From Saprospiraceae bacterium (lineage in GTDB: Bacteria; Bacteroidota; Bacteroidia; Chitinophagales; Saprospiraceae), in contig JABSSL010000113.1 of NCBI GenBank assembly GCA_013214355.1, positions 1 through 39,038 of the forward strand: a stretch of 39,038 bases of DNA, read 5' to 3'. Numbering within the stretch: the stretch's first letter is position 1; each line of letters begins with the position of its first letter. A program made the position numbers and the translations under genes. A model generated the notes under the pieces. It saw nothing but the letters and a program-made list of their open reading frames with translations, made no database searches and was not told where the DNA came from. Shown here in pieces: positions 8,637 to 24,528 of this stretch.

Positions 8637-10919
8637 ATGGCGAATACTCGCTCCACCACCCTTCTATTCTTTGCCCTTTTCTGGGCGATTAACTACGGAA
8701 ATAGCCAAAACCAACCGGGTACAGAATTACATATCAAAAAGGCCAAAGGCACCATCGTACTGGATGGAAATATCGATGAATCTGACTGGCAGACTGCCGA
8801 TATTGGAGATGATTGGTACACGAATTTTCCCGTGGATACTGTAAGAGCCCCCTTTCAAACAGAAGCTCGCTTTACTTTCGATGATGAATTTTTCTATGCC
8901 TCCTTTGTTTGCTACGATGATGAAACACCAGATATCGTCAACTCGCTCCGACGTGATTTTAATTACGACCTAAATGACAACGTTGGATTTACCATTGGTC
9001 CTTACAATGATAAACTGAATGGTTTTTTCTTCGTCATCACCCCGGCGGGCATTCAAATGGAGGGAACGGTGACCGGAGGTGGTAGCAGTGATGATTCCTT
9101 TAGTGCTTTTTGGGATAATAAATGGTATTCCAAAGTAGTGCGTTACAAGGATAAATGGGTTGCCGAATTGGCCATACCCTTCAAGAGTTTTCGGTATAAA
9201 AGTGACATCCGAGAATGGAATATCTCAATCGATCGTTGGGAGTTAAAGCGGAACCGCAAGACGAGTTGGATTCGCACACCCATCCAGTTTATCTCGGCCT
9301 CTTTCCCCTATGGAGGCCAATTGATCTGGGATGATCCTATTCCTCCGGCAAAAACCAACATTTCTTTTATCCCTTATGTCACCGCTAATACCTCTTCGAA
9401 TAGAGAAGTTAATCCAACGGTTCAAAATTCTGATATCCAAGTTGGCTTCGATGCGAAAGTAGCGGTCACCCCATCCCTAAACCTAGATCTCACCATAAAT
9501 CCGGACTTTTCGCAAGTGGAGGTGGACGATCAGATCATTAACCTGACGCGATTCGAATTCCGGTTTCCAGAACGGCGGCAATTCTTTTTGGAGAATAGTG
9601 ATTTATTCGACTTGGCGGGTTTTCCGGGAGCACGCCCCTTTTTCTCTCGGCGGATTGGACTAGCACGCGATTCTTCGGGCTTATTGCAACAGGTACCTAT
9701 TTTGTATGGTGCCAGGCTTAGTGGATCCTTGAGTGAAAAGTGGCGCTTGAATATTTTAAATATGCAGACCAAAGAGGAAACCTCTATTGGGTTGCCAGCG
9801 CAGAACTATACGGTGGCGGCCGTCCAGCGGAATTTTGGGGCGCAGTCTAACATCACCTTTAGCTTCGTCAACAAACAAAGTCTTGGGGTGGAATCGAGCG
9901 ATTCGCTTAAATATTTTAGTGAAAACGTCTTCCGGGAAAGACAGGTAGGAAACCGGATGGAATTGAGACCTAACACCTACAATCGAGTGCTTAGTGTTGA
10001 TGTAGAAGCATATAGTAAAGACACAAGATGGTATCATAGTTCTTATCTCAGCAAGTCCTTTGATGATTTTAATGATCAAGAAAACCTTTCAGGCTTGGCT
10101 TTTGGTAGCTATTCTACTCGTACTTTCAGCGCCTTTACTGGCTTTTCTTTTATCAATGAATTCTTCAATGCCGAAGCGGGTTTTGTGCCCAGTGCACGAA
10201 CTTATCCTGGCCAATATTCTTTTTTTGGCAACCTAGGCTATCAATTTTATCCAGAGCGGGAGTCCATCATTCGGATGGGGCCCACCTTTGATATCCAACA
10301 CACCTATATCCCTGGCGGCACTTTAACGGACCGAAGTTATCAATTGGGCTATCAGTTTGATTTCAGTAATGCATCATCCTTACAGTTCAGCTACAACCAC
10401 GTCTTCCAGAAGCTAACCAACAGTTTCAATTTGCTGGATCCTAATCAATATACTGGCTTTCTGGAAGGAGAGGAATACAATTGGAATTCCTTTTCTATTG
10501 AGTATAACAGTAATCCGAGGAAGGCCTTTTTCTATCAAATCAGCACTAGCTATGGAGGCTTCTATAATGGTGAAAACTTCAACCTAAGTGGAGAATTGAC
10601 CTATCGTTATCAGCCTTACGGGAATATTGCTTTGCGCTTTGACTACAACGATCTACAATTACCAGAGAATTATGGTCAGGAACAATTATTCCTCATTGGT
10701 CCACGAATTGATCTAACGTTTACGGATAAGATTTTTCTAACGACCTATGTCCAGTACAATAATGTCTTTGACAACATTAATCTAAATGCTCGTTTTCAAT
10801 GGCGCTATCAGCCGGCTTCAGATCTGTTTATTGTGTACACAGAAAATTATCTGCCGGCCGATCTATTCAGTAAGAATCGAGCATTGGTGTTTAAAATGAC
10901 CTATTGGTTGAATTTATAG
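8637..10919 (+). CDS. DUF5916 outer-membrane protein with N-terminal CBM9-like domain
   Basis: A 760-residue exported protein (signal peptide about 1-23, cleavage after NSQ). Residues about 30-240 resemble the CBM9/DOMON-like sugar-binding fold: GTIVLDGNIDESDWQTA, a TEARFTFDDEFFYASFVCYD strand pair, and WVAELAIPFKSFRY. From about 240 the DUF5916 region follows (LDLTINPDFSQVEVDDQ, then RFEFRFPERRQFFLEN and FFSRRIGL). The rest is rich in alternating aromatic strands and ends in a terminal Leu preceded by FKMTYWLN, typical of an outer-membrane beta barrel. The family is widespread in Bacteroidota and often lies near exported hydrolases, but its substrate is not established. A paralogue follows 216 bases downstream with its own -7 element. 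Confidence 0.9.
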   Translation: MANTRSTTLLFFALFWAINYGNSQNQPGTELHIKKAKGTIVLDGNIDESDWQTADIGDDWYTNFPVDTVRAPFQTEARFTFDDEFFYASFVCYDDETPDIVNSLRRDFNYDLNDNVGFTIGPYNDKLNGFFFVITPAGIQMEGTVTGGGSSDDSFSAFWDNKWYSKVVRYKDKWVAELAIPFKSFRYKSDIREWNISIDRWELKRNRKTSWIRTPIQFISASFPYGGQLIWDDPIPPAKTNISFIPYVTANTSSNREVNPTVQNSDIQVGFDAKVAVTPSLNLDLTINPDFSQVEVDDQIINLTRFEFRFPERRQFFLENSDLFDLAGFPGARPFFSRRIGLARDSSGLLQQVPILYGARLSGSLSEKWRLNILNMQTKEETSIGLPAQNYTVAAVQRNFGAQSNITFSFVNKQSLGVESSDSLKYFSENVFRERQVGNRMELRPNTYNRVLSVDVEAYSKDTRWYHSSYLSKSFDDFNDQENLSGLAFGSYSTRTFSAFTGFSFINEFFNAEAGFVPSARTYPGQYSFFGNLGYQFYPERESIIRMGPTFDIQHTYIPGGTLTDRSYQLGYQFDFSNASSLQFSYNHVFQKLTNSFNLLDPNQYTGFLEGEEYNWNSFSIEYNSNPRKAFFYQISTSYGGFYNGENFNLSGELTYRYQPYGNIALRFDYNDLQLPENYGQEQLFLIGPRIDLTFTDKIFLTTYVQYNNVFDNINLNARFQWRYQPASDLFIVYTENYLPADLFSKNRALVFKMTYWLNL

Positions 10920-11064
10920 TAATGAGCTTTGGCTTTAAGGCTGGGGTTTGATCGATGGAGAAAGGCCCTTTGGCGATCTCTGTTCCTTGTTCTATCGAGT
11001 CTGTGGCGTTTCTAGACTATCCTGCTAAAGACTGGGTACCCTTTTATCTTTCTTAAAATGGGCG

Positions 11065-11072
11065 TATTTTTG
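11065..11072 (+). promoter_or_regulatory. Candidate Bacteroidota -7 promoter element
   Basis: TATTTTTG matches TAnnTTTG and lies 63 bases before the ATG at 11136. A good -33 TTG is not evident. It suggests the second DUF5916 gene has its own promoter. Confidence 0.42.
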
Positions 11073-11135
11073 CAACAGCGTTTCATTTAGGAGGGCTCTT
11101 CTTTTCAATATAGAATTCTTCACAACCCAATACCG

Positions 11136-13436
11136 ATGTTATTTTCCTCCATGTTTATGGTTAAGGGGATATTGAGTAGCCAAACAGCTTTACGCACTAG
11201 ATTTGTCAGGATAAAAGCTACTGATATCCCGCAAGTATCCTCTGTCCTCTTGATAGGTACCCTATTTTTCACGACCTCCTTTTTATGCGCTCAGGAAACC
11301 TTCGAACCCCCCGCTACACCATCGTATGTCAGTGCTACTAAGACGAACATTTCCATGCAGGTGGATGGTCTATTAGACGAACCAGATTGGGAACGAGCAG
11401 CATCAATTAGTGCCTTTGTTCAGAAAGACCCAGTGCAGGGTGATTCCATCAGTATGCCTACAGAGGTAAAAATATTGTTTGATCAGGACTACCTGTACGT
11501 TGGGGCTTTTTGCCATACTAAGAATGGGCGTAAGGATATTCGCGTTCAGAACTTTCAGCGCGACTTTAGCTATTTTCAGAATGATCTATTTGGTATTGCG
11601 ATAGACGGTTTTATGGATAAGCGGAATTGTCTAGTGTTCCAGACCAATCCCTACGGTGCGCAGCGTGAAATATTGGTGATGGATGATCAAATCTTTAACA
11701 GAGAGTGGTCTGGACTTTGGAAAGTGCGTACACAAATCACCGATGCCGGGTGGACAGCAGAGATGGCCATTCCTTGGAAAACGCTTCGGTACCCAGACAA
11801 TTGCAAGCAGATGGGTATTATTCTGAACCGAAATATCCGCTTGAATAATGAATACGCCTCTTACCCCGCAGTACCAAGAGCTTTCACGGTATATCGAATG
11901 CCATATGAAGCCATTCTAACTGGTATTGAGCCACCCCCACCCACGGTTAATATTCAAGTCAACCCATATGCATTGGTGAATTTTTCCACGGAGAAGAAAG
12001 ATGGTGTAAGCTTGAACGAAAAAACGGAAATAAAACCCGGTGGAGAGGTAAAGTGGGTGATGAGCCCAAGTTCTGTCTTGGATTTAACTTTTAATACGGA
12101 CTTTGCCCAGGCTGATGTAGATCGGCAGGTAGTGAACCTAACCCGCTTCTCGGTATTATTTCCGGAAAGGAGACAGTTCTTTTTGGAAGGAAATGAAATC
12201 TATTATATGGCGGCCTGGGACAATCTGCAGCCGTTCTTCAGTCGTCGTATTGGTTTGGATGATAGTGGTAATCCCGTGCCGATCCAAACTGGCGCAAGGT
12301 TCACGAGTCGGAGCCCTAAACAAAGTGTGGGAGCGTTGATGATCCGTCAAAGTGGACAAGACGAAAAGCCTGCTTCCAATTTTGCGGTGGCTCGTTACTC
12401 GCGCAATTTATCCGGGCAGAATCGCCTAGGTGGGATGGCTACCTTCCGATATGATGAAGCTGATCCGGTAAGCGGTAAGTCAACCGCTAATACTACGCTT
12501 ACCGTAGATGGCTTCTTCCGCCCCACGCAGCAAATCAATGCTTTTTGGATGCTATCTGGCTCGAAGACTACAGGAGCCATCGAAGATGAGGGCCTTTCAG
12601 GTGCCTTGTGGGCCTATTATTCGAATAACTGGATTTATCTGGGGCACGTTCAAAGTTTCATCACTGACGAGTATAATCCTCGCGTAGGTTTCGTCGATGC
12701 CACCAATTACCTAGTTACTAGCCCAGCCGTAAGATTCAAATTGCGCCCCCCATGGTTGCCTAAGTTTATTCGACAATATAGCCCTGGGTTGACTACTTAT
12801 TTCTTTCACTACTTAGACGACCTAACTTTCCGAGAAGGCTTCATTGATTATCAGCCATTCAGTCTTGAATTGCAGGACGGGAGCGAGTTCAGCTACTCCT
12901 TTCGTACCACCCAACAATCGCTGCGCGAATCCTTTTTTCCTGTCGGTATTGAGATTGCTCAAGGAGATTATAATTATTTAAGTCATCGAGTGAGTTATAC
13001 CAGTGATTTTTCAAAGAAAATTGCGTTCGGTGCCAATTATCGTTTTGGACAATATTTCGATGGTCAGCTCAATACGCTTTCTAGTTCGCTACGTCTAGCC
13101 CCTACGCCACACATTGCGCTAACTGCCGATTATGAATGGAATGAAATTCGAGGCTTAGGTTTTGAAAATACTTCGCTTACCACCCATTTGATCGGTGCAG
13201 AACTGCGACTGGCACTTAATCCACGGCTGCAATGGGTTAATTTTTATCAGTATAATACCGTTGCCAAGCGGGCTACGCTCAACAGCCGATTTGTCTGGGA
13301 ATATAAACCTCTTTCCTATATTTACTTGGTATATAATGATAACCAAGGTGATGCCATAGACCCTGAAACCAATAGAACCAATCGAATTCAAACTCAACAA
13401 GGGATTTTCAAACTTACTTTTCTGAGGCAGTTTTAG
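11136..13436 (+). CDS. DUF5916 outer-membrane protein, second paralogue
   Basis: A 766-residue relative of the preceding protein. The first 40 residues do not look like a signal peptide; the hydrophobic segment VSSVLLIGTLFFTTSFLCAQ lies at about 34-53, so either the signal is long or translation begins at a later codon. ATG codons at 11151 and 11157 are alternatives still upstream of it. The CBM9-like part reads MQVDGLLDEPDWERA, VKILFDQDYLYVGAFCH and WTAEMAIPWKTLRYPD. The DUF5916 part has LDLTFNTDFAQADVD, FSVLFPERRQFFLEGNE and FFSRRIGL, shared with the first paralogue, and the end IFKLTFLRQF is a barrel-type last strand ending in Phe. The two proteins are clearly related but diverged, so the duplication is old. 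Confidence 0.9.
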   Translation: MLFSSMFMVKGILSSQTALRTRFVRIKATDIPQVSSVLLIGTLFFTTSFLCAQETFEPPATPSYVSATKTNISMQVDGLLDEPDWERAASISAFVQKDPVQGDSISMPTEVKILFDQDYLYVGAFCHTKNGRKDIRVQNFQRDFSYFQNDLFGIAIDGFMDKRNCLVFQTNPYGAQREILVMDDQIFNREWSGLWKVRTQITDAGWTAEMAIPWKTLRYPDNCKQMGIILNRNIRLNNEYASYPAVPRAFTVYRMPYEAILTGIEPPPPTVNIQVNPYALVNFSTEKKDGVSLNEKTEIKPGGEVKWVMSPSSVLDLTFNTDFAQADVDRQVVNLTRFSVLFPERRQFFLEGNEIYYMAAWDNLQPFFSRRIGLDDSGNPVPIQTGARFTSRSPKQSVGALMIRQSGQDEKPASNFAVARYSRNLSGQNRLGGMATFRYDEADPVSGKSTANTTLTVDGFFRPTQQINAFWMLSGSKTTGAIEDEGLSGALWAYYSNNWIYLGHVQSFITDEYNPRVGFVDATNYLVTSPAVRFKLRPPWLPKFIRQYSPGLTTYFFHYLDDLTFREGFIDYQPFSLELQDGSEFSYSFRTTQQSLRESFFPVGIEIAQGDYNYLSHRVSYTSDFSKKIAFGANYRFGQYFDGQLNTLSSSLRLAPTPHIALTADYEWNEIRGLGFENTSLTTHLIGAELRLALNPRLQWVNFYQYNTVAKRATLNSRFVWEYKPLSYIYLVYNDNQGDAIDPETNRTNRIQTQQGIFKLTFLRQF

Positions 13437-13768
13437 GGTTTGGGGAAGGGTGATACAAGACGGTCAAAGCTTGTGTGCCATTTTTTGAAACTGTATTCCT
13501 GCAGGATTTTTCATTTAAATAATTATAGCATCAATTGCTTCTTTTATCATAGCAGTCAAGCTCAGGTTTCGTAGTTTTATTGGGTCGATAGTTGGCATCA
13601 CCTAACAACATAGCTGCACGCCTCCAACTTACCGTAATCATCTAAATCTGTTGACAATACTTTTCCAAACTATAGATTGTAATTTGTCTTATCTAAATAG
13701 TAAGCCAGACTGTTTTGATGAAAATTATCTTATTTTGGAGAGTCCAAATTTTTTAATCAAATAGACGA
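13437..13768. other. Intergenic region upstream of the EAD11/pentapeptide operon
   Basis: No gene is seen in these 332 bases. It is A/T-rich near the following ATG. A TTGACA at 13651-13656 followed by TATAGATTG at 13671-13679 is the best promoter-like pair, and TAATTTG at 13680 and TATTTTG at 13731 are near-misses to the TAnnTTTG element. Any of these could serve the operon; none is exact. Confidence 0.35.
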
Positions 13769-14599
13769 ATGGAAGCCTTTGATCAAAAAAAGATAAAAGA
13801 GCTTATCACTGAAGGTAAAATAAAAGAAGCACTTGAATCCATTGCTTCAGAATGCGAAAAAAGAAAGCTTTCGAAATACCACAATCGGGTGTTAGCACTC
13901 TTTTCGGAGCTTAGGATATTGAAGGATACACATGTTAAAGGACTCACCTCTGACGAGGACTATAGAATTGGCTTAAACAGGGTGAATTATGCAGCATTGG
14001 AAACGGTCGATGAACTAGCTGCCAAGCTAGAATTGGATAGTGGTGAGGCAAGAACAAAAAAAGTAAAAAACTGGCAGCTTTGGTTGGGGGGATTGGGTGT
14101 TTCAATACTTATCCTCTTTAAAGTCTTCAATGGATTCCAAGGTCGGAATGATACAGATTCCAGGCAACAAGATAACATGCCGATAGTAAGTGATACGGCT
14201 GCTCAAAGCGAGGTAAGTAGTACAAAAGAAAAGAAAGTCGTTGATACTGTAAAACAACACACCAAACCTCCGTCTGTGTCTGCAAAAGATAAAGCGAAGG
14301 TCAATCCTGTTCCGCTTACTACCTTAAATGGCAATATTGGCCTTCCGGTAAAAGGTATTTTAGTGGAGGTACGACTAGTGGATGATGGCAATAAAGTATA
14401 TAGTGACAAAAGTGACCTCAAGGGTAGCGTTGCCTTTCAGTTACCCGCAAGTACCTTGGCGAAAAACGAATACCTGGAGTTAACCTATTATGAAAACGGT
14501 CAATTTATTTATCAAGGTAATGTGTTACATAAGAACAACCCTACCCTGTTTCGACTGCCAGCAAAGATCCTTCTTTTGATGGAAAAAGAAAGTGAATAG
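13769..14599 (+). CDS. EAD11-like single-pass membrane protein with external beta domain
   Basis: A 276-residue protein in three parts. Residues about 7-86 resemble Effector-associated domain 11: KKIKELITEGKIKEALESI, then HNRVLALFSELRILKD, GLTSDEDYRIGLNRVNYAAL and VDELAAKL, matching the family pattern in which a small helical bundle ends in N/R-x-N-x-aLL-x-liDEL. A single transmembrane helix lies at about 102-119, preceded by KKVK, so the EAD should be cytoplasmic and the remainder outside. Residues 120-182 are a low-complexity linker (Ser/Thr/Lys-rich). Residues about 184-270 look like a small beta sandwich (LNGNIGLPVKGILVEVRLVD, then SDLKGSVAFQL and YLELTYYENG), similar in pattern to the duplicated beta domains of the next two proteins. 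EADs are adaptors that join effectors by like-with-like contacts in conflict and signalling systems. It starts a three-gene unit with 24- and 37-base gaps. Confidence 0.8.
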   Translation: MEAFDQKKIKELITEGKIKEALESIASECEKRKLSKYHNRVLALFSELRILKDTHVKGLTSDEDYRIGLNRVNYAALETVDELAAKLELDSGEARTKKVKNWQLWLGGLGVSILILFKVFNGFQGRNDTDSRQQDNMPIVSDTAAQSEVSSTKEKKVVDTVKQHTKPPSVSAKDKAKVNPVPLTTLNGNIGLPVKGILVEVRLVDDGNKVYSDKSDLKGSVAFQLPASTLAKNEYLELTYYENGQFIYQGNVLHKNNPTLFRLPAKILLLMEKESE

Positions 14600-14623
14600 A
14601 CAACACCCCAATAATCAATTATA

Positions 14624-17002
14624 ATGAAGTATATAATCTACTTGGTTCTCATTTTAGTAGTCCCATTCTTTAGCTATTCACAAACAAATATTAATCTGAT
14701 TTATCGGGATGCCGATACCCAACAAGAGCTTGATGGAGTAGAAATGTATTTTCTTAATAAAAAAAACAAACGTATAAACATCCCTAGAACCGATGTTTTT
14801 GGCTTTACCAATTTTGAAACTTCTGATTTTGGACCTGGCGATATTATTCAATTGCACCACCGCAAAGATCCTGACTATTATGAAAATTTAAAACCCTATG
14901 ACCTTCGCATCTCCTCAGACCCAAGAGCCAATAACTTCAAGATATTTCTAAGGAAAAATGTCCTCTTTATTATCCTTCAAGTTCAGGATGAACTATCCCA
15001 GGAGTCGATCACAGGAGTTCAAGCAACTTATTATAAAAAAGATAACCAAGCAGGTGAGGTGTTTGAATCGGATGAGCATGGACTGGTAGTGATGGAAATA
15101 CATACCTATAAGCCTGGAGATGAGCTAAAAATACTTCTTACTCCTCCTGCTGGATCAAGTTATCGATCTTTGGAAACGACCCAATACATCAAAAGTAACC
15201 TACTTGATAACCGCTTTCAGATTAAGCTATCGACATCTGGTGAAGGCCGCCTTAATAAGAAGGTGCAATCACAAATGAATTTTAAGTCCGCACAAAGTAT
15301 CCTGGATAAGGCCAAAAAGGGGAGAGATGGCTCACAGCAAGGACAAAATGAGGCATTAGCCTATCTTATCAAATTTGGTTATGCCTTCAATGGCGTCGAT
15401 TTCAGTGGGATAAGTTTTGAGGGTGCCTCTCTCAATAAAGGGATATTTGATGAAGGAAAATTACACGGTGTAAATTTTGCTGGGATAGAAGCAAAAAATG
15501 CTTCTTTCAGAGAGAGCGGTTTACGTTTTGCGCAGCTGCAAGAAGCTAATATGGAGGGCGCCAATCTGAGTGGTAGCTACTGCCCTTTTATCTGGGGAGA
15601 GAAAGCCAGCTTTGAAGGGGCTGATTTGTCAGGTGCCAGCTTCTTTTGTGCCGATCTCAGAGAGGCCAATTTTAAAGGAGCCAATCTCAGTGGAACGGCT
15701 TTTGCATTTGCCGACCTAAGAGGAGCTAATTTTGAAGGGGCTAATCTCAGTGGAGCTTATTTTAATGGCGCTATACTGGACGATGCGATTTTTACTGATG
15801 CCGTTTTTTCTGAGACAGACATGCTGGGGGCCGTGGCGGATAATTTCCAGTTATCAGAAGCACAAAAAGAAAAGACTTGCCGTCATGTTTACGTGAATAA
15901 TAGCTTGAAAAAGAAAAAAAATACCCGCCGGTCAAGTACATGGGCAGTACAATGGTACTTTCAGTTTTGGGAGTCATGGCCCAGTCCTAGTGCTCATTCA
16001 GGGACTGGGATGGATAAAATAGTTGAGTCGCAGTCTATGTTTGTGAATTTCGACACCGAATTGCTTCCTGCCTGTACAACACCTGCAGAGGGGCCGCCGG
16101 CTCATGATGCCATCTTCGTTGGAACCCATGGTCTAACAGTTGACCGATCATTTGCTTCCAAGAACAAACGCAAAGCCATCTACAAGAAGCGGGTAGAGGA
16201 CCACATCAAGCTATTGGAAGAAAATATGCAGCCCTTTAAGTCATTTCGTGGGCCCGCGGCGATTCAAAAGGAAATCAGTCTACATATGAACAAAAAGCTG
16301 CAGGAGCCCACTACTCTAGAGGAACCCTACTTCAATTCTGATTTATTTGCTGTGTTACTTTCAAAAGCCAATATCTCGGACAACATAAACTGGGAGTACC
16401 TGGCCTTTCTTCGCTGGCATTATGAATATCAGTTCGTCAATGATGATGACATCAAATCGCATTCTTACTGGGGAAATTTTTATCCTCGAAATGCATCCTG
16501 GGTGGATTTACCTAATGAAAAGTTTGAGCTCTACAAGAAATGGGTGAAAGCACGAGCGAAAACCCAAATCAATAACATCGTCATTAAACATCCACTCAAG
16601 ACACTTAGAGGAAGCCAGAATCGGGGAAAACCATTGATGGAGCGGATGCTCCTTAATAATGCGTATGAAGAGCGATTTCACCAAAATTATCGTTCAAGTG
16701 TACGATCGAATACGGCAGTATTTTTAAGCGAAAAGGGGATTAGTGCCGATCGGATTTATGTTCCACCAGTAGCTTATTTACCACGAATTGCATATGTGTT
16801 TCCGAGAGCGATCAACAGCTTTGAGGTGACGGAACAGCCGCCTACAGATGATACCATGTATTACGAGTTAGATTTGGCTCTTCAAGAGGTAGAAACTACT
16901 AAAGACGATCACAATCAGCCCATCATTCTTCTTCATGTGAATCCACAAAAAATAGGAGGATACAGCGACAAAGTGGAGCTGTGGAGCCAAAAAATTAAAT
17001 AG
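14624..17002 (+). CDS. Exported pentapeptide-repeat protein with duplicated beta domains and an unknown C-terminal domain
   Basis: A 792-residue protein with a signal peptide (1-20, cleavage after SYSQ or just before). Two tandem beta-sandwich-like repeats follow (about 21-111 and 112-203), each with a V(Q/E)..(Y)...N segment, a D..G turn and a GD.(L/I)..L strand, like carboxypeptidase-regulatory-type domains. A helical cap (220-252, with GRDGSQQGQNEALAYL) leads into a pentapeptide-repeat solenoid at about 254-405 (repeats such as ANLSG, ADLRG, ANFEG). The last ~370 residues match nothing I recognise but are conserved in the next gene (AEGPP.H.A.FV at 488, YFNSDL at 569, W.DLP.EK at 626, KHPL). 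It has a basic stretch (SLKKKKNTRR) at 427-436 absent from its paralogue. It stops where the paralogue continues into further domains. Likely periplasmic or surface exposed; function unknown. Confidence 0.85.
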   Translation: MKYIIYLVLILVVPFFSYSQTNINLIYRDADTQQELDGVEMYFLNKKNKRINIPRTDVFGFTNFETSDFGPGDIIQLHHRKDPDYYENLKPYDLRISSDPRANNFKIFLRKNVLFIILQVQDELSQESITGVQATYYKKDNQAGEVFESDEHGLVVMEIHTYKPGDELKILLTPPAGSSYRSLETTQYIKSNLLDNRFQIKLSTSGEGRLNKKVQSQMNFKSAQSILDKAKKGRDGSQQGQNEALAYLIKFGYAFNGVDFSGISFEGASLNKGIFDEGKLHGVNFAGIEAKNASFRESGLRFAQLQEANMEGANLSGSYCPFIWGEKASFEGADLSGASFFCADLREANFKGANLSGTAFAFADLRGANFEGANLSGAYFNGAILDDAIFTDAVFSETDMLGAVADNFQLSEAQKEKTCRHVYVNNSLKKKKNTRRSSTWAVQWYFQFWESWPSPSAHSGTGMDKIVESQSMFVNFDTELLPACTTPAEGPPAHDAIFVGTHGLTVDRSFASKNKRKAIYKKRVEDHIKLLEENMQPFKSFRGPAAIQKEISLHMNKKLQEPTTLEEPYFNSDLFAVLLSKANISDNINWEYLAFLRWHYEYQFVNDDDIKSHSYWGNFYPRNASWVDLPNEKFELYKKWVKARAKTQINNIVIKHPLKTLRGSQNRGKPLMERMLLNNAYEERFHQNYRSSVRSNTAVFLSEKGISADRIYVPPVAYLPRIAYVFPRAINSFEVTEQPPTDDTMYYELDLALQEVETTKDDHNQPIILLHVNPQKIGGYSDKVELWSQKIK

Positions 17003-17039
17003 TTCATTATTATTTTCTGACACCTTTAACCAGATTAAT

Positions 17040-20000
17040 ATGTTACCTCGGTTTTTCCTCTTAAGTATTATCTGCTTTACCGTAAATCCCCTTTGGAGTC
17101 AGCTTACTGTGAACCTAAGATTGTTGGATGCTACATCTCAGGAAGAACTGCAAGGAGTAGAAGTGTTTTATTACGATAAAAGTAATAAGCGAATTAAGGT
17201 ATGTACTTCTGATCCAATGGGGAACTGCACCTTCGAAACCTCTGCCTATAATCCGGGAGATGTTTTGGAACTGTATTCAAGAAAGGACCCCGATTATTTT
17301 GAAAACTTAAGCCCACATACGCTAACCTTAGTCTCGAAATTGAACGAAAACAATGCAACTATTTTTCTGAAAAAAGATGTCATTTATGTCAATGTAAGCT
17401 TAAGGGATACCGATTCTTTTCAACCTCTTGCCGGAGCTACAATTCAGTATTTTAAGAAGAATAACTTACCCGGGGGTATTTTTGAAACCGATCAACGAGG
17501 TATTGCTTCTTTGGAAGTAAGTACATTCCAACCCGGGGACGATTTGCGATTTACGATCTACTTTCCACCAGGTTCAGATTATACTACTCAGGAAATCACA
17601 AAAACAATACGGGCAGATCTGCAAAAGAATAGCTTTTCGATCCTTTTACAGACGGAGCAATCCATCTTGAGTAGCAAAGAAGAGAATCAGTTTGATCTTA
17701 CATCGGCCCAAAATACATTGGAGCGGGCGGTCGAAATTCGTGATGGTTCCAAGCAAGGCCAGGTTGAAGCCCTTGAATATTTGTTGGCCCAGGATTTTGA
17801 ATTTAACGGTACGGATTTCAATGGTATTAATCTGGATGGTGTTGACATCACGAAGGGGAATTTTACGGAAGCTAGACTCAATGCTGTTTCCCTCAATAAA
17901 GCCATGGCCAAGGGGACTGTACTAAAAGAAAGTGGGTTGCGGTTTGCTAAAATGGAGGAAGCCAATTTTGAAAATGCAGACATGCGACAATGTTATGCGC
18001 CTTTGATATGGGGGCGGGGTGCACAGTTTGAGGGGGCTAATCTTTCGGGGTCTAGCTTCTTCAGCGCTGACCTCAGAGAGGCCAATTTTAAGAATGCAGA
18101 TTTGAGTGGAGCAGCTTTTGCATTTGCTGATTTACGTGGGGCTAACTTCGATGGGGCGGACCTAACAGGTGCCTACTTAACCGGAGCCCTTCTCGATGAC
18201 GCATCCTTTGAGGGAGCGATTATTTCAGGAACAGAGATGTTATCGGTTACTGCCAACTCCTTCAATTTGACAGCATCTCAAAAGCAGGGTGCTTGTCGGC
18301 ATTATGTGAATAAAGCTGAATATGTGAGTTGGAATGTTCGAATTACCGAAGAAATTCCAAATACCAGATTTGCTGATGGGGTTGAGTATAGCGTCATTCT
18401 TAATACCAAAAACTACAACAGAAATGCTGATTTCAAAACCTTTGTAGATAAGAGCTTACCCGTTTGTGCAACTGAGGCAGAAGGCCCCCCAATGCATAAT
18501 GCCATGTTTGTAGCAAATGAAGCCTTCTGGTTTACAAGAGCTTTCTTGAGTAAAGCGAATCGGTACAGTGTATTCAAAGATCGCATCGTGTCGCATATGC
18601 TATTATTGCAGGAGAATGTAAAGGAAAACCGTACCCTAAAAGGAGATGGAAAGGAAAGAGAAAACTGGATTGAACAGCTCAAAACCAATACGAAAAAGAT
18701 TACCAAGCCGACCTCAAAGCCTTATTTAAATAGCGATCTAATCTTACTCATATTAGCTGCTAATGAAAAGGTAGATCATGGTAAACTGAGCTGGAGCCAG
18801 GGAGCTGTTCACCGTTCTGCTTTTGAGCGAAGAGTGAAGGATGAACTTAAGGTAGACTTCAAATCTTGCTCGATGTGGGAAGGCGTTTTCCCCGCCTCCT
18901 CCAATTTGGCAGTAGCTTGGGGAGATTTACCAGAAGAAAAAATTGACATTTATAAAGACTGGGTAGAAAAGCGAAGTGCTTATGCACCTGATCATTTTAT
19001 CATTAAGAACCCACTCTCTGCCTTTGCCAAATGGCGTGTCAAACTATCAGAACTCTCCACACTAATCAGTGCGAATCATTGGGAAGGCAAGAATATCGTT
19101 CTTGATCGTAGCAGACAAAGAAGGATTTACGCAAATCTTTCTAGTAAATATTTTTTGCCAATGGTAGTATCGGTGGGAGTGCCGGTGAATTTTGTCTTCC
19201 CTATGCCCATGGAAGAGTATGCCATAAATCTTCCTACCCAAAATACCAATAGCGATATTAGCTACGAATTGAAGATTGCTATAGACCGGATAGAACCGAT
19301 GTACGATAAGAAAAAAAGAAGATATCAAGTGCTGTTTTTTGTACATCCAGAAGAGATCGTTTTTCATGAAAAGGGAATGGAGATACGCCGGCAGTCTTTT
19401 GGGAAACCCTATTTGGACCCTATCCAGAAGCGAGAGGAAGAATTCAAGGCTTGGGATGCAGCTGTGAAAGGCAATGATATAAAATCTTATCTGGCCTATT
19501 TATCCGCTTATCCCGAGGGTGTCTTTTCTCAACAAGCCAAAAACAGGGCAGAAGCCAATCAGGAACTGTACGACTGGGAAATGACTAAAGTCGTGGGGAG
19601 TCGAGAGGCTTTTAATGCCTATATGCGAAAATATCGACGGGGCACTACTTACTACGATGAAGCTAAAGCTATTGTTGAAGCTAATAAAGGGAAAACCCGA
19701 TGGTTCTTTGAAAGCCCAAACATCGAACCCACTATCAAAGACAAGGATGGGAATATCTACCCGGTTCTAAAAATGCCGGATAACAAGCAATGGCTTGGCG
19801 TAAACCTAAATGTAGAAACGCCAGGCTCGAAATGTTTCGAAGACCAATCCTATCAGTGTGAGCGCTACGGCCGATTCTATACCTGGGAAGCTGCTAAGGA
19901 AGCATGTAAGACGCTAGGAAAAGGCTGGCGTCTCTCCAACAAAGCGGATTGGGAAGCTCTTGTCGCCACCTACGGCGAAAAAAAGGCAGCCTTCATGGAA

Positions 20001-20228
20001 TTGACAAAAAAGGAATATCCCGGCTTTGACCTCAGACTTGGCGGTGCTATCCAGGAGAATGGATACGCACACTTCCGGTACTCTGGCTACGGTCAATATT
20101 GGACTTCAACCTCCGAAGATGATGCCAATGCCACACTATACAGCTTCAAGAATGATTATTACACATTCATCTCCGTATTAAGTGGTTTGAAAACGGAAAT
20201 GCGCTCCTGCCGCTGTATTAAGGAGTAA
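17040..20228 (+). CDS. Exported pentapeptide-repeat protein with helical repeats and C-terminal FISUMP domain
   Basis: A 1062-residue paralogue of the preceding protein. Signal peptide 1-20 (cleavage near WSQ). Two beta-sandwich-like repeats (about 22-111, 112-204), helical cap (219-252, IRDGSKQGQVEALEYL), pentapeptide repeats (about 254-405), then the same unrecognised domain (about 420-790, including EGPPMHNAMFV at 481, YLNSDL at 562, WGDLPEEK at 627). It then adds two helical repeats of the kind A-W-x-x-A-x-x-x-x-x-x-x-x-Y-L-x-x-Y-P-x-G (805-882: FKAWDAAVKGNDIKSYLAYL, AYPEG) and a FISUMP (Fib_succ_major) domain at about 885-1062 with KMPDNKQWLG, RFYTWEAAKEAC, GWRLSNKADWEAL, QYWTSTSEDDANA and a final MRSCRCIKE. 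Several Cys residues there could form disulphides. FISUMP domains are secreted and related to C-type-lectin-like/FGE folds. The helical repeats often accompany EAD proteins in this phylum, supporting a shared system. Confidence 0.87.
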   Translation: MLPRFFLLSIICFTVNPLWSQLTVNLRLLDATSQEELQGVEVFYYDKSNKRIKVCTSDPMGNCTFETSAYNPGDVLELYSRKDPDYFENLSPHTLTLVSKLNENNATIFLKKDVIYVNVSLRDTDSFQPLAGATIQYFKKNNLPGGIFETDQRGIASLEVSTFQPGDDLRFTIYFPPGSDYTTQEITKTIRADLQKNSFSILLQTEQSILSSKEENQFDLTSAQNTLERAVEIRDGSKQGQVEALEYLLAQDFEFNGTDFNGINLDGVDITKGNFTEARLNAVSLNKAMAKGTVLKESGLRFAKMEEANFENADMRQCYAPLIWGRGAQFEGANLSGSSFFSADLREANFKNADLSGAAFAFADLRGANFDGADLTGAYLTGALLDDASFEGAIISGTEMLSVTANSFNLTASQKQGACRHYVNKAEYVSWNVRITEEIPNTRFADGVEYSVILNTKNYNRNADFKTFVDKSLPVCATEAEGPPMHNAMFVANEAFWFTRAFLSKANRYSVFKDRIVSHMLLLQENVKENRTLKGDGKERENWIEQLKTNTKKITKPTSKPYLNSDLILLILAANEKVDHGKLSWSQGAVHRSAFERRVKDELKVDFKSCSMWEGVFPASSNLAVAWGDLPEEKIDIYKDWVEKRSAYAPDHFIIKNPLSAFAKWRVKLSELSTLISANHWEGKNIVLDRSRQRRIYANLSSKYFLPMVVSVGVPVNFVFPMPMEEYAINLPTQNTNSDISYELKIAIDRIEPMYDKKKRRYQVLFFVHPEEIVFHEKGMEIRRQSFGKPYLDPIQKREEEFKAWDAAVKGNDIKSYLAYLSAYPEGVFSQQAKNRAEANQELYDWEMTKVVGSREAFNAYMRKYRRGTTYYDEAKAIVEANKGKTRWFFESPNIEPTIKDKDGNIYPVLKMPDNKQWLGVNLNVETPGSKCFEDQSYQCERYGRFYTWEAAKEACKTLGKGWRLSNKADWEALVATYGEKKAAFMELTKKEYPGFDLRLGGAIQENGYAHFRYSGYGQYWTSTSEDDANATLYSFKNDYYTFISVLSGLKTEMRSCRCIKE

Positions 20229-20418
20229 GCGCAAAGAGGAAATGCATCAAGTTAGATATTCCGTTGACAACTAACTATTGCACTATTTGAAACTAAATAA
20301 AAAGCGAATCCGCCGCTTATCTCGCTGGAGCAACTTGCAGCGCTGGAATAACAAAAATGAGTAATCCGCTTAAAACTTGGTTTTATGAGCTGAAAAACTC
20401 GATCTAAAGAATTATAAA

Positions 20419-20715
20419 ATGATACGAATCATCTACCACTGGAAAGTAAAGCCACAAAACATTGACCTTTTCATCGAGACCTGGAAAAGAACCACCAATA
20501 AAATTCATGAAACCGTAAAAGGAGCTAGGGGCAGCTTTATGATCCAGGGGCATGAAGACCCTACTGAAATAAAGACCATTGCCAGATGGGATGCGCTCGA
20601 AGATTGGCAGCAATTCTTTCAAGGGAGCAATCCCAGCCAAATGTTATCGATGCGTGACTTGGGGGAACGAACGGGGGTTGAAATCTATCAGGAAGTGGAT
20701 GATTTTACGAGGTAG
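20419..20715 (+). CDS. Antibiotic-biosynthesis-monooxygenase-like (ABM) domain protein
   Basis: A 98-residue protein with the dimeric ferredoxin-like alpha+beta barrel pattern of the ABM superfamily: an N-terminal strand IRIIYHWKVKPQNIDLFIET, helix to KIHETVKGARGSFMIQG, strand TIARWDALEDWQQFF and a last strand GVEIYQEVDD. The G-x-x-G-S region and W-x-x-x-E-D-W-Q are typical. Members are small heme- or quinone-related monooxygenases or ligand-binding dimers, and this sequence alone does not show which. It lies 190 bases after the pentapeptide operon and 65 before a racemase-family gene. There is no signal peptide, so it is cytoplasmic. Confidence 0.75.
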   Translation: MIRIIYHWKVKPQNIDLFIETWKRTTNKIHETVKGARGSFMIQGHEDPTEIKTIARWDALEDWQQFFQGSNPSQMLSMRDLGERTGVEIYQEVDDFTR

Positions 20716-20780: not shown

Positions 20781-21476
20781 ATGAACAAAATCGGAATCAT
20801 TGCAGGTATAGGACCCGCATCAACAGTAGAATACTACAATTTTATCATTCAAGGGTTTCGAGAAAGATTATCGACCAAGGATTATCCGGAACTACTCTTG
20901 CATAGCATTAATATGACGGAGATGCTGAACTACGTCTTCACCGGAGAACTGGATAAATTGGTTGAATTTTTGAAAGAAAAGGTAAAGGTCCTAGAATCAG
21001 CTGGAGTAGATTACGTGGCTCTAGCTTCCAATACGCCGCATTTGGTTTTCGAGGAACTAGCCGGGGTCGTGGATACGAAAATGATTAGCATTGTTGAAGA
21101 AACCTGTGAAGTAATTGGTAAATCTGGCCTTAAGAAAGTCGGGTTGTTGGGTACGAAGTCCACGATGAGTATGGGATTCTATCAACAGGTGGGAGTGAAG
21201 CAAGGTATTGAAATAGTAATCCCGGATGAGAAACAACAAGATTATGTGCACGAAAAGTACATGGGGGAGTTGGTGTTCAATCAAATAAAAGCAGAAACAA
21301 AACAGCGTCTAGTCGAAATAGTGGACAAATTGCAAGCCGAAGAAAGTATTGAAGGTATTATCTTAGGAGGTACGGAACTGCCGCTAATTCTAAAGCAAGA
21401 GGATTTCCGCCATTTGAAGGTGTTCAATACGACGGAGATCCACGTCAATGCCATCTTGGATAAAATGTTGGCCTAA
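20781..21476 (+). CDS. Aspartate/glutamate racemase-family protein lacking catalytic cysteines
   Basis: A 231-residue cytoplasmic protein of the Asp/Glu/hydantoin racemase superfamily (IGIIAGIGPASTVEYYNFII at the N terminus; KKVGLLGTKSTM; EIHVNAILDKM at the end). In active members two residues, usually Cys-Cys or Thr-Cys, sit in C-N-T-x-H and G-C-T-E. Here the first motif is ASNTPH, with Ser at the catalytic position, and the second is GGTELPL, with Gly in place of Cys. The backbone of the family is otherwise well kept, including the LGGTE loop and the C-terminal helix. It may therefore be a binding protein, use a different chemistry, or be inactive. The next gene encodes an AraC-type regulator 73 bases downstream. 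Confidence 0.86.
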   Translation: MNKIGIIAGIGPASTVEYYNFIIQGFRERLSTKDYPELLLHSINMTEMLNYVFTGELDKLVEFLKEKVKVLESAGVDYVALASNTPHLVFEELAGVVDTKMISIVEETCEVIGKSGLKKVGLLGTKSTMSMGFYQQVGVKQGIEIVIPDEKQQDYVHEKYMGELVFNQIKAETKQRLVEIVDKLQAEESIEGIILGGTELPLILKQEDFRHLKVFNTTEIHVNAILDKMLA

Positions 21477-22644: not shown

Positions 22645-24528
22645 GTGAAAGCAATATTTATTTATCTGTTTTGTGTGCTTAGTATTCAAGCTTTTGGCCA
22701 AAAGGATTGGGTGAATCTACCGGAGGAAAACCTGGCGGAGAGATCCATGGAAGAGGGCAATTATGCACTGGCGATTAATTTGTATCAACAAGCGCTGGAC
22801 ATTCGAAAAGCGAAATATCCAAAAGGCATTTTCTGCCATCTGGATGCTTTTAAGGAGGTAGCAGAAGCCATGGATCATCTGATCATTGCCCATAGTAAGG
22901 CGGGTGATTACAAAAAGCACATTGAGCTTTGCCAGGAATTGTGTGCCTGGGCAAAGGAAGGGATAGAGGTGTTTCCCACCAAGCCTACTTGCTATCTAGA
23001 GTATGGGCTAACGCAGATCAAAGTGGCTGAATCTTACCAGAAGCTAAAACAATACGATCGGGGCGTAGAAGTCTGCCAAAACCTCATCGATTATTTGCAG
23101 AACCCCAGCAATACCAGACCCCTTAAGCATGTAGCCAAGTATGTTGTCGGCTATGCCTATAGTAGAGCTGGTGAAATCCTAAAGGAGCAGGGGCAGTTGA
23201 AAGCCTCGGCGACACAGCATGAGAAAAGCGTGGCAGCCTGGCAGAATACGCTGCAGCAGTCGAAAGACAAACTAGTATATGAAGCCATTGCGAAGCAGTC
23301 TGAAATCTGTGTGCAGCGATTTGATAAACTTCAGGACTCTACCTCGGTGATCAAGTACGCTAAGCTTGCCTTAATACATTATGAATATTTGTTCAAGAAA
23401 GATCCTCGAAATGAAAAATTGAGCCGTAAAGTGGAGACGGCAGGAAATACATTGGCCAGCTACAAAGCTGGCTCTGGAGACCACCAGGATGCCATCTGGC
23501 GCTATAAGAGAAGTCTAGCCCTCAATGAAAAGCAGTTTAAGGAAAATGGGCAGGCAGAGCAGCTAGAACAGATGGCTGCTCTCAACTTGAAGATATCGCA
23601 GGCTTATACCGCTGTGAATGATCTCTCTTCATCTGCGGAACACCTTTTCACTAGGGTAGAACAGCTGATTAAGTTGGATGAACTCGTGGCGGAGATTGAC
23701 TATTCCTACACCATCTCCCGAAACCAGTATGATTTGGCAAAGCAACATGAGTCCCTTGGTAATTATCCAGAAGCCGTGAAGATGATGGATGAATCTGTGG
23801 TCTGGGGGATCAAAGCCATTGAGAAGGATACCAGCAGTATGAGGAGGAAAGAATGGCAATGGGTACAAGAGTTTTTCCGATATCAGCTCTTAAAGAAAAT
23901 GGAAGATTATGGGACTGCTTATACCTCGCTAGATCGACTGAAGAAGATTCTGAACGGTTTGGAAGAACTAAAACCTGAGATTCAATATTCCGAACATATC
24001 AGAGAAGTGGAAGTCTCCCAAAGAGAATTGGCCTATCCTGAAATTGTGAAATTGGATACGGAAATAGACAATATGGAAGGGGGGAAAATGAAGTTTGATA
24101 AAGCCGTAGAATTAGTGGAGTCCCTACGAAAGAAGATGCGAAAAGATCGATCTATGCGCTTGCCTTTCGTTCGGCATACCAATGTGTTGGCTTGGAATGG
24201 GATATTGGCAGGAGAGTATAAAATCACTAAAAAGGCGCTGAAAAGAGCCATGCGCATTAAACCCGTAGACCCATACCTCATCACCAACTATGCGCCCTGT
24301 ATGCTATTTCTTGGGAAGTATAAGCAGGCAGATGAAATTTATGCCAAGTATTACAATGAGCCATTTAAGCCGGGGAAAAAAATCATTGCTGGCTTTATAG
24401 CTGATCTCGAAGAGTTTGAAGAAGAGGGAGTCATACCTGAAATGCATCGCCAAAAAGTGGATGAGATCAAGGCTCAGTTGAAAGTTTGGCAAGAGGAGAT
24501 GAAAGATACCTCCCCGAAAACGAATTGA
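22645..24528 (+). CDS. Exported tetratricopeptide-repeat protein
   Basis: A 627-residue protein starting at GTG 22645 directly into a signal peptide (MKAIFIYLFCVLSIQAFGQ). The mature protein is alpha-helical with TPR-like units, for example EGNYALAINLYQQALDIRKA, AGDYKKHIELCQELCAWAKE, LKQYDRGVEVCQNLIDYLQ, GDHQDAIWRYKRSLALNEKQ, LGNYPEAVKMMDESVVWGIK and, at the C terminus, LGKYKQADEIYAKYYNEPF. TPR arrays are protein-interaction scaffolds; no catalytic domain is present. A signal peptide without a lipobox suggests periplasmic location. No clear operon partner: the upstream gap is 247 bases and the following gene is a cytoplasmic regulator. Confidence 0.88.
   Translation: MKAIFIYLFCVLSIQAFGQKDWVNLPEENLAERSMEEGNYALAINLYQQALDIRKAKYPKGIFCHLDAFKEVAEAMDHLIIAHSKAGDYKKHIELCQELCAWAKEGIEVFPTKPTCYLEYGLTQIKVAESYQKLKQYDRGVEVCQNLIDYLQNPSNTRPLKHVAKYVVGYAYSRAGEILKEQGQLKASATQHEKSVAAWQNTLQQSKDKLVYEAIAKQSEICVQRFDKLQDSTSVIKYAKLALIHYEYLFKKDPRNEKLSRKVETAGNTLASYKAGSGDHQDAIWRYKRSLALNEKQFKENGQAEQLEQMAALNLKISQAYTAVNDLSSSAEHLFTRVEQLIKLDELVAEIDYSYTISRNQYDLAKQHESLGNYPEAVKMMDESVVWGIKAIEKDTSSMRRKEWQWVQEFFRYQLLKKMEDYGTAYTSLDRLKKILNGLEELKPEIQYSEHIREVEVSQRELAYPEIVKLDTEIDNMEGGKMKFDKAVELVESLRKKMRKDRSMRLPFVRHTNVLAWNGILAGEYKITKKALKRAMRIKPVDPYLITNYAPCMLFLGKYKQADEIYAKYYNEPFKPGKKIIAGFIADLEEFEEEGVIPEMHRQKVDEIKAQLKVWQEEMKDTSPKTN

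Follow-up and report, generated by a model that had tools for sequence, protein, structure and literature searches.

EADs are small adaptor domains that occur in many copies per genome, on both the cores and the effectors of conflict systems (Kaur et al. 2020/2021; PMC7159879, PMC8195603; statements on these and the other papers cited here refer to parts of each text). The EADs of one genome tend to resemble each other more than those of other genomes, a tendency and no requirement (PMC7159879, PMC8195603). The nearest described layout to the one considered here is EACC1 (System 4), in which a 5′ gene encodes a protein with one transmembrane (TM) helix flanked at either face of the membrane by alpha+beta elements, and a 3′ gene joins a constant caspase or cyclase component to variable effectors. 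EACC1, found in actinobacteria and some proteobacteria, is occasionally fused to EAD1 or EAD2 and has been proposed as a membrane sensor for its caspase-bearing partner (PMC7159879); because of these fusions, an EAD at the membrane has a precedent. Here we examine a three-gene module (P0001, P0002 and P0003) in a 39,038-nucleotide stretch of DNA from Saprospiraceae bacterium (contig JABSSL010000113.1, our C17, of the 11.19-Mb, 224-contig genome G000), the whole of which we call the window. P0001 is a one-TM protein bearing EAD11, and its two partners are predicted to be exported. We give even chances to the reading that the module is an envelope receptor that passes signals to an EAD11-based conflict network.

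The trio resembles EACC1 in having a one-TM protein with an EAD and a 3′ partner, but its EAD is EAD11 and its exported partners lack a caspase: P0002 and P0003 have no caspase or cyclase match at E-value (E) ≤1. Pfam, which we take to include an EACC1 model, lists none for P0001 at E≤1. The EAD principle itself holds in this genome, where EAD11 sits on a core (iSTAND, on C159 and C175) and on caspase, CHAT and kinase proteins. Apart from EACC1, the published accounts place EADs on core, effector or signalling proteins, whereas here EAD11 is carried by single-pass membrane proteins with ectodomains and exported partners. The iSTAND-MoxR-vWA ternary system is resembled by two EAD11-iSTAND/MoxR/giant-gene loci of the genome, and the trio has none of its three components, no trio gene matching iSTAND, MoxR or vWA in Pfam at E≤1. 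EAD7 is named beside vWA-MoxR-VMAP, in nothing like the layout of the trio (PMC10910872, in part), and the name EAD11 is absent from the main text of PMC8195603 as far as that text was available. Literature searches listed no description of a membrane EAD11 with exported operon partners, supplements and preprints lying outside this scope and possibly holding one; the three papers listed as containing the name EAD11 bear titles on unrelated subjects. To judge from these searches, the combination extends the EAD principle in a way not described before, for which EACC1 is a partial precedent. The earlier note on this DNA had known of no described system with this layout; that stands for a membrane EAD11 with exported operon partners, but EACC1 with EAD1 or EAD2 (PMC7159879) had escaped it.

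A one-TM protein with EAD11 and two predicted exported paralogues

The module consists of three same-strand (+) open reading frames (ORFs) with intergenic gaps of 24 and 37 bases, a spacing consistent with an operon. P0001 (13769..14599, +; 276 amino acids (aa)) carries EAD11 at residues 6-83 (13784..14017, +; PF19964, E 1.5e-12, 47.7 bits where the curated cut-off is 26; 50.5 bits in a whole-genome scan), followed by a single predicted TM helix, a linker and a small beta-rich end at about residues 183-266 (14315..14566, +). The helix, at about residues 104-122 (14078..14134, +), has a modest mean hydropathy of 1.65 and is directly preceded by RTKKVK; lysine and arginine (K/R) number four on the EAD side and two on the far side. 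The gene order and gaps, the EAD11-like domain and the single helix with KKVK had all been noticed in the earlier note from the letters alone, and each is confirmed. Among solved structures, none is related to EAD11 at E≤10. The beta-rich end does not match the CarboxypepD-like domain of the sister receptors described below significantly (E 4.4, rank 50), has no detectable homology to the beta domains of P0002 and P0003 (hhalign <1%), and P0001 has no pair-specific short motif in common with either partner (z −0.0 and 1.9).

P0002 (14624..17002, +; 792 aa) and P0003 (17040..20228, +; 1062 aa) are 39% identical over most of P0002 (E 2.9e-158), and each begins with a signal peptide according to a home-made hydropathy heuristic, on which all our export calls rest. 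Both have, at the N-terminus, a tandem pair of beta-rich domains that are homologous to each other (hhalign 97.5%, E 6.7e-12; residues 20-208 of P0002), pentapeptide repeats (E 3.3e-27 and 4e-24, respectively; a solenoid at about residues 254-414 of P0002) and a common C-terminal domain of about 370 aa with 29% identity (15893..16999 in P0002 and 18312..19439 in P0003, both +). This last domain finds nothing convincing in Pfam, NCBIfam or PADLOC at E≤1 and no relative among solved structures at E≤10. P0003 has a C-terminal extension. Downstream of the common domain lie YLxxYPxG-type repeats at about residues 799-887 (found by eye and by sequence search), which match one of the two caspase-FGE proteins encoded on C45 (described below) at C45:8604-8843 (E 8.3e-6), and a FISUMP domain at residues 901-1061 (19740..20222, +; TIGR02145, E 3.6e-22; PF09603, E 8.8e-13). 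FISUMP presumably has a C-type-lectin-like fold, with which a below-cut-off Lcl_C match of P0003 is at most consistent; against solved structures FISUMP gave a single chance-level match, to a designed protein (E 0.098). The twin exported paralogues of the earlier note thus stand, with their beta domains, pentapeptides and shared C-terminal domain and with export called heuristically, but the repeats and FISUMP of P0003 had been missed.

No enzyme family exceeds its cut-off in P0001-P0003 (Pfam, NCBIfam, PADLOC), and the anti-phage models of PADLOC-DB 2.0.0 give 0 families at E≤1 for any of the three. NCBIfam matches to Qnr and MfpA (resistance-type pentapeptide proteins), HetL and PipB (an injected effector) lie below their cut-offs and were judged to be repeat cross-matches. 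A promoter and terminator scan returned no more than shuffled sequence does.

Recurrence of the layout across the Saprospiraceae

The survey comprised 108 loci: 80 family regions around the best-ranked listed EAD11 matches outside the genome of the window (hence not a random sample; four of them, L115, L137, L152 and L159, have no EAD11 ORF in the gene calls), 27 regions of that genome and the window. Genes, TM helices and signal peptides were called with home-made heuristics. Among 115 EAD11 proteins, 71 are soluble, 25 have EAD11 followed by one TM helix, 7 have EAD11 with several, 4 have EAD11 after a TM helix, and 8 are of other kinds. The next gene within 70 bp is predicted to encode an exported protein for 11 of the 25 EAD11-one-TM genes, the window being one of the 11, compared with 4 of the 71 soluble EAD11 genes (Fisher p 3.5e-5), 3 of 38 genes without EAD but with a single internal TM helix (p 1.4e-3) and 74 of 781 genes without EAD (p 1.2e-5); since several of the sister modules are mutually homologous, these counts are not fully independent.

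Positive charge is distributed consistently in these proteins: the EAD side is the richer in K/R in 24 of 25 EAD11-one-TM proteins, and the other shows a tie. Three receptors run in reverse order, from signal peptide through ectodomain and TM helix to a C-terminal EAD11 (L052:7219-8109, L168:557-1645 and L179:4021-6258), and all three checked likewise have more K/R on the EAD11 side; the fourth TM-then-EAD protein (L048) is probably a soluble LRR protein. This bias supports the inner-side display of EAD11 that the earlier note had put forward. The trio belongs to the class, with an N-terminal EAD11, one TM helix, the K/R bias and a heuristically exported same-strand neighbour at 24 bp. Linked receptor-partner pairs are found in nine genera, the pairs on C90, C164 and C17 from the genus of the window being counted once. 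The layout recurs across the family with differing exported partners, the trio being, as far as searched, a lineage-private member.

Among the partners scanned, the commonest subfamily has an N-terminal CarboxypepD-like domain followed by TPR, and that N-terminal domain is homologous to the last ectodomain domain of the receptors (hhalign 95.6%, E 1.3e-8). A search of 16 whole genomes found 26 copies of it in 13 genomes, of which 17, in a tally made by reading the loci, are preceded by a membrane EAD11 gene, directly or with a sibling partner in between (three linked copies at a distance of about 180 to 417 bp). This proportion is biased upwards because all ten rows of the query alignment stem from EAD11-linked loci. 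A fairer estimate comes from 11 loci fetched anew, of which 3 are linked; in one of these (G197:C1) the EAD11 was already known from the family scan. Of the remaining copies, a contig end truncates one (G167:C253), and a soluble EAD11 gene precedes another at a distance of 1.2 kb (G167:C248). The domain has 12 matches to solved structures, all at chance level (best E 0.067). The genome of the window has no copy of it at E≤0.001, and its own pairs use other partners. P0002 matches the CarboxypepD-like partner domain only at E 9.7. Run against 1327 ORFs, a profile of the P0002/P0003 beta domains has sister partners, matched in a comparable N-terminal position, as four of its top five non-self matches, and this ranking hints at a common origin; none of the four is significant singly (E 0.21-1.9), and the hypergeometric value of 4e-8 ignores kinship.

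In two of 14 modules, a pair-specific short motif is common to the receptor tail and the partner N-terminus (L031, z 6.9; L118, z 8.1), with foreign partners averaging about 0. The L031 genes (L031:7776-10717, on C90 of the genome of the window) overlap by one base, and the motif at the end of the receptor recurs right after the signal peptide of the 801-aa exported TPR partner. Both pair and motif are kept in G329 and G257, making three same-genus genomes in all, and the orthologues lie in L200 and L202. A search of the genome of the window with this motif listed three sites at E≤1: one is in the receptor, one in the partner (E 0.54) and one in a further exported protein, the partner's paralogue on C60 (E 0.025). 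The C60 paralogue (L221:5992-8559) was called as two ORFs of 336 and 485 aa and is perhaps a broken gene. The motif of L118 (L118:5998-8440, G197) is unrelated to that of C90. For the class as a whole, the shared C90 motif is the best sequence evidence that receptor and partner may meet outside. The arrangement, with one copy at the C-terminus of one product and the other at the N-terminus of its neighbour, is like that of the BASS amyloid motif pairs (PMC8086366, in part). Unlike in BASS, the motif of the sister modules is predicted to lie outside the membrane; the likeness proposed is one of arrangement. The window trio has no such motif.

Receptor ectodomains are diverse. Over cut-off are FGE-sulfatase (L165, E 1.6e-31), LamG (L177, E 9.9e-12), TPR (L043) and CarboxypepD (L123, L168), and below it CarboxypepD (L131) and PPC (L138); L122, L139, L146, L149, L155 and L037 show nothing convincing beyond EAD11. 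LamG and the C-type-lectin-like fold fit binding. The ectodomains do not decide between sensor and effector, since FGS is counted among effectors in PMC7159879.

Other EAD11 proteins of the genome and a block absent from two relatives

The genome of the window has 32 EAD11 matches, the maximum in the family, where 50 of 100 genomes have at least one. Across the phylum, EAD11 reaches E≤0.001 in 7 of 247 genomes and exceeds its cut-off in 3, two of these being the genome of the window and one family member. From this contrast, EAD11 is chiefly an expansion of the Saprospiraceae. Two EAD11-iSTAND genes (C159, C175) are each followed by a MoxR-type AAA ATPase gene and then by a giant gene encoding PKD domains, joined in one of the two loci by an Amidase_2 domain. 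No vWA domain was detected in the giant genes with Pfam, so these loci hold two of the three components of the published ternary system. The iSTAND and MoxR-type pair is also present in L213 (G329), and gene order suggests the same in L211 and L212. A 2512-aa protein on C192 (L041:7716-15254) combines a caspase, four EAD11 domains and pYEATS; similarly long open frames with several EAD11 matches are seen in G257 and G329. EAD11-CHAT (C198) and EAD11-kinase (C177) proteins are present as well, relatives have EAD11 fused to TIR and AAA, and 6 of the 10 EAD11 proteins of this genome that were scanned have no second family over cut-off. The EAD11-bearing effectors that the earlier note had supposed to be encoded elsewhere are thus in place. 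On C45 (L034:4789-10714), an EAD11 gene with four TM helices is followed 112 bp downstream by a caspase-FGE-sulfatase gene, and another gene of this kind is found two genes upstream; with heuristic signal peptides, these two caspase-FGE proteins are possibly periplasmic caspases.

The trio lies in a block (10919..20403) that has no counterpart at the same place in two of three other same-genus genomes. There, the genes flanking the block adjoin, with gaps of 66 and 138 bases (G329:C102 and G257:C378), and their products are 93-94% (upstream gene, 8637-10919) and 91-93% (downstream gene, 20419-20715) identical to those of the window; in the third genome (G161), no joint occurrence of the flanking genes was found. 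Between the flanks, the window carries 9.5 kb with a DUF5916 gene (11136-13436) and the trio, and a gain is the simpler reading than a loss in two relatives. The region downstream of the block also varies within the genus, as relatives have other exported genes (L198:10127-11676, L199:5352-6167) between their counterparts of window genes 20419-20715 and 20781-21476. Further downstream, a TPR protein (22645-24528) has a C-terminal tail that by eye resembles those of EAD11 partners; it probably lies outside the module, since it is kept in place in G329 without the trio.

Outside its own genome, P0001 matched over EAD11 only, in 2 of 149 genomes searched from the order, and 35 pattern matches in a wider contig collection yielded 0 confirmed. 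P0002 matched elsewhere in the order only at residues 222-432, the pentapeptides and their edges. Among plasmids, 272 records match P0002 and 0 cover 80% of it; the 10 of 272 listed fall within residues 189-537 and are mostly annotated as pentapeptide repeat proteins. Across 398 family genomes, the C-terminal domain was found in its own genome only, apart from an uncounted weak match in G362 (E 1.9e-4, two stops), and in the contig collection it gave 69 pattern matches and 0 confirmed, a weak test based on just two peptide patterns. As far as searched, the trio appears to be private to its genome.

Possible roles as envelope receptor, effector or scaffold

As an envelope receptor, P0001 would cross the inner membrane once, its EAD11 reaching into the cytoplasm and its small beta-rich end lying on the outer side. 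P0002 and P0003 are probably transcribed together with P0001 and would be exported recognition or scaffold proteins, and FISUMP in P0003 could bind a ligand. Binding or clustering outside would be relayed through P0001, whose clustered EAD11 may then recruit, by homotypic contact, the EAD11-iSTAND/MoxR, EAD11-caspase, EAD11-CHAT or EAD11-kinase proteins encoded elsewhere in the genome. Such recruitment would end in a conflict or cell-suicide response.

Several observations weigh against this reading. No sequence signal speaks for contact within the trio, since the beta-rich end of P0001 shows no detectable homology to the beta-rich domains of its partners, and an AlphaFold model of P0002 from the P0002 and P0003 alignment is poor (mean pLDDT 41.6, with the C-terminal domain below 50 nearly throughout). 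Among the EAD11 domains of its own genome, the one most like the EAD11 of P0001 belongs to the C159 iSTAND protein (score 99, against 91 for the runner-up; E 2.0e-4), but a CHAT and a TIR protein of other genomes score 105 and 99, among the best overall. Mean similarity is 53 to the EAD11 domains of its own genome (n 31) and 63 to those of others (n 109; p 0.012), so that the published same-genome resemblance is not seen for P0001 and the difference runs the opposite way. With EAD11 domains of a CHAT and a TIR protein of other genomes scoring as high and own-genome domains less alike, EAD11 pairing is unreadable from similarity. The 9.5-kb block is dispensable within the genus, and an orthologous trio was not found in any other genome searched. 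As for the class, 14 of the 25 EAD11-one-TM genes have no exported immediate neighbour (3 of the 25 lie at contig ends), 7 of the 26 partner-domain genes have no adjoining EAD11, and in 12 of the 14 modules the z of the own pair is at most 3.7, mostly no better than that of the best foreign partner. Five of 10 receptors in one family scan have no ectodomain family beyond chance, and FGS is listed among effectors and not sensors in PMC7159879. The earlier note had itself named the absence of homologues of the three genes together in other genomes as a result that would speak against it. Orthologues were literally nowhere found together, yet the layout recurs with different exported partners. 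Taken together, what that note observed is confirmed and its interpretation is partly supported.

The signal might also run outwards. A cytoplasmic EAD11 core such as iSTAND/MoxR would then recruit P0001, and P0002 and P0003 would act as effectors in the envelope or at the surface, sealing the cell off or changing it. Some iSTAND systems are equipped with TM segments and with effector domains that associate with peptidoglycan, and probably work close to the membrane (PMC7159879), which, with the published effector roles of FGS and superstructure-forming domains, favours such a branch; so do the Amidase_2 domain in one of the iSTAND-linked giant proteins and the two caspase-FGE proteins with signal peptides near the C45 EAD11 gene. 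Nevertheless, we think it unlikely, because the signal peptides of P0002 and P0003 would export them without P0001, so that recruitment inside would not control export, and also because the trio lacks an enzyme family over cut-off and some sister ectodomains are of binding types (LamG).

It seems improbable, too, that EAD11 is a general scaffold module and the trio an envelope assembly for adhesion or surface organisation, apart from conflict or cell death. The family-wide expansion of EAD11, rare elsewhere in the phylum, would suit a general module, as would the EAD11 proteins without another family over cut-off and the generic nature of TPR and CarboxypepD partners. Against this, EAD11 is fused to caspase, CHAT, TIR, kinase, AAA and iSTAND, several of which recur in published conflict systems. 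Still harder to credit is a chance association, in which a stray EAD11 membrane gene lies beside a pair of surface-protein genes brought in by the same 9.5-kb block. The absence of an orthologous trio from the other genomes searched, the lack of detectable homology between the beta-rich parts and the DUF5916 gene in the block would all agree with mere proximity, but the genes lie on one strand with gaps of 24 and 37 bp, and the layout is enriched across the family.

EADs have been placed mostly on proteins of the cell interior, with EACC1 the sole membrane case proposed as a sensor in the published accounts drawn on here. A recurrent membrane EAD11 with an exported operon partner is a testable candidate for the envelope input (or output) of EAD networks, and the motif-sharing pairs (L031 with its orthologues L200 and L202, and L118) supply short peptides for interaction tests. 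More speculatively, and with distinctly less confidence than for the trio itself, these modules might form the family's surface arm of an EAD suicide network. Numerous single-pass EAD11 receptors, a fair share of them operon-paired with a private exported protein through a shared beta domain or a short self-associating motif on the outer side of the membrane, would report envelope events such as phage adsorption, predator contact or a neighbour's surface to EAD11 caspases, CHAT proteases and iSTAND/MoxR. Animal death receptors such as TNFR1 and Fas have an ectodomain, one TM helix and an intracellular homotypic adaptor that recruits caspase-linked proteins. The likeness is one of layout, with no homology claimed; if the proposal is true, the Saprospiraceae modules would be a prokaryotic counterpart, in layout, of these receptors.

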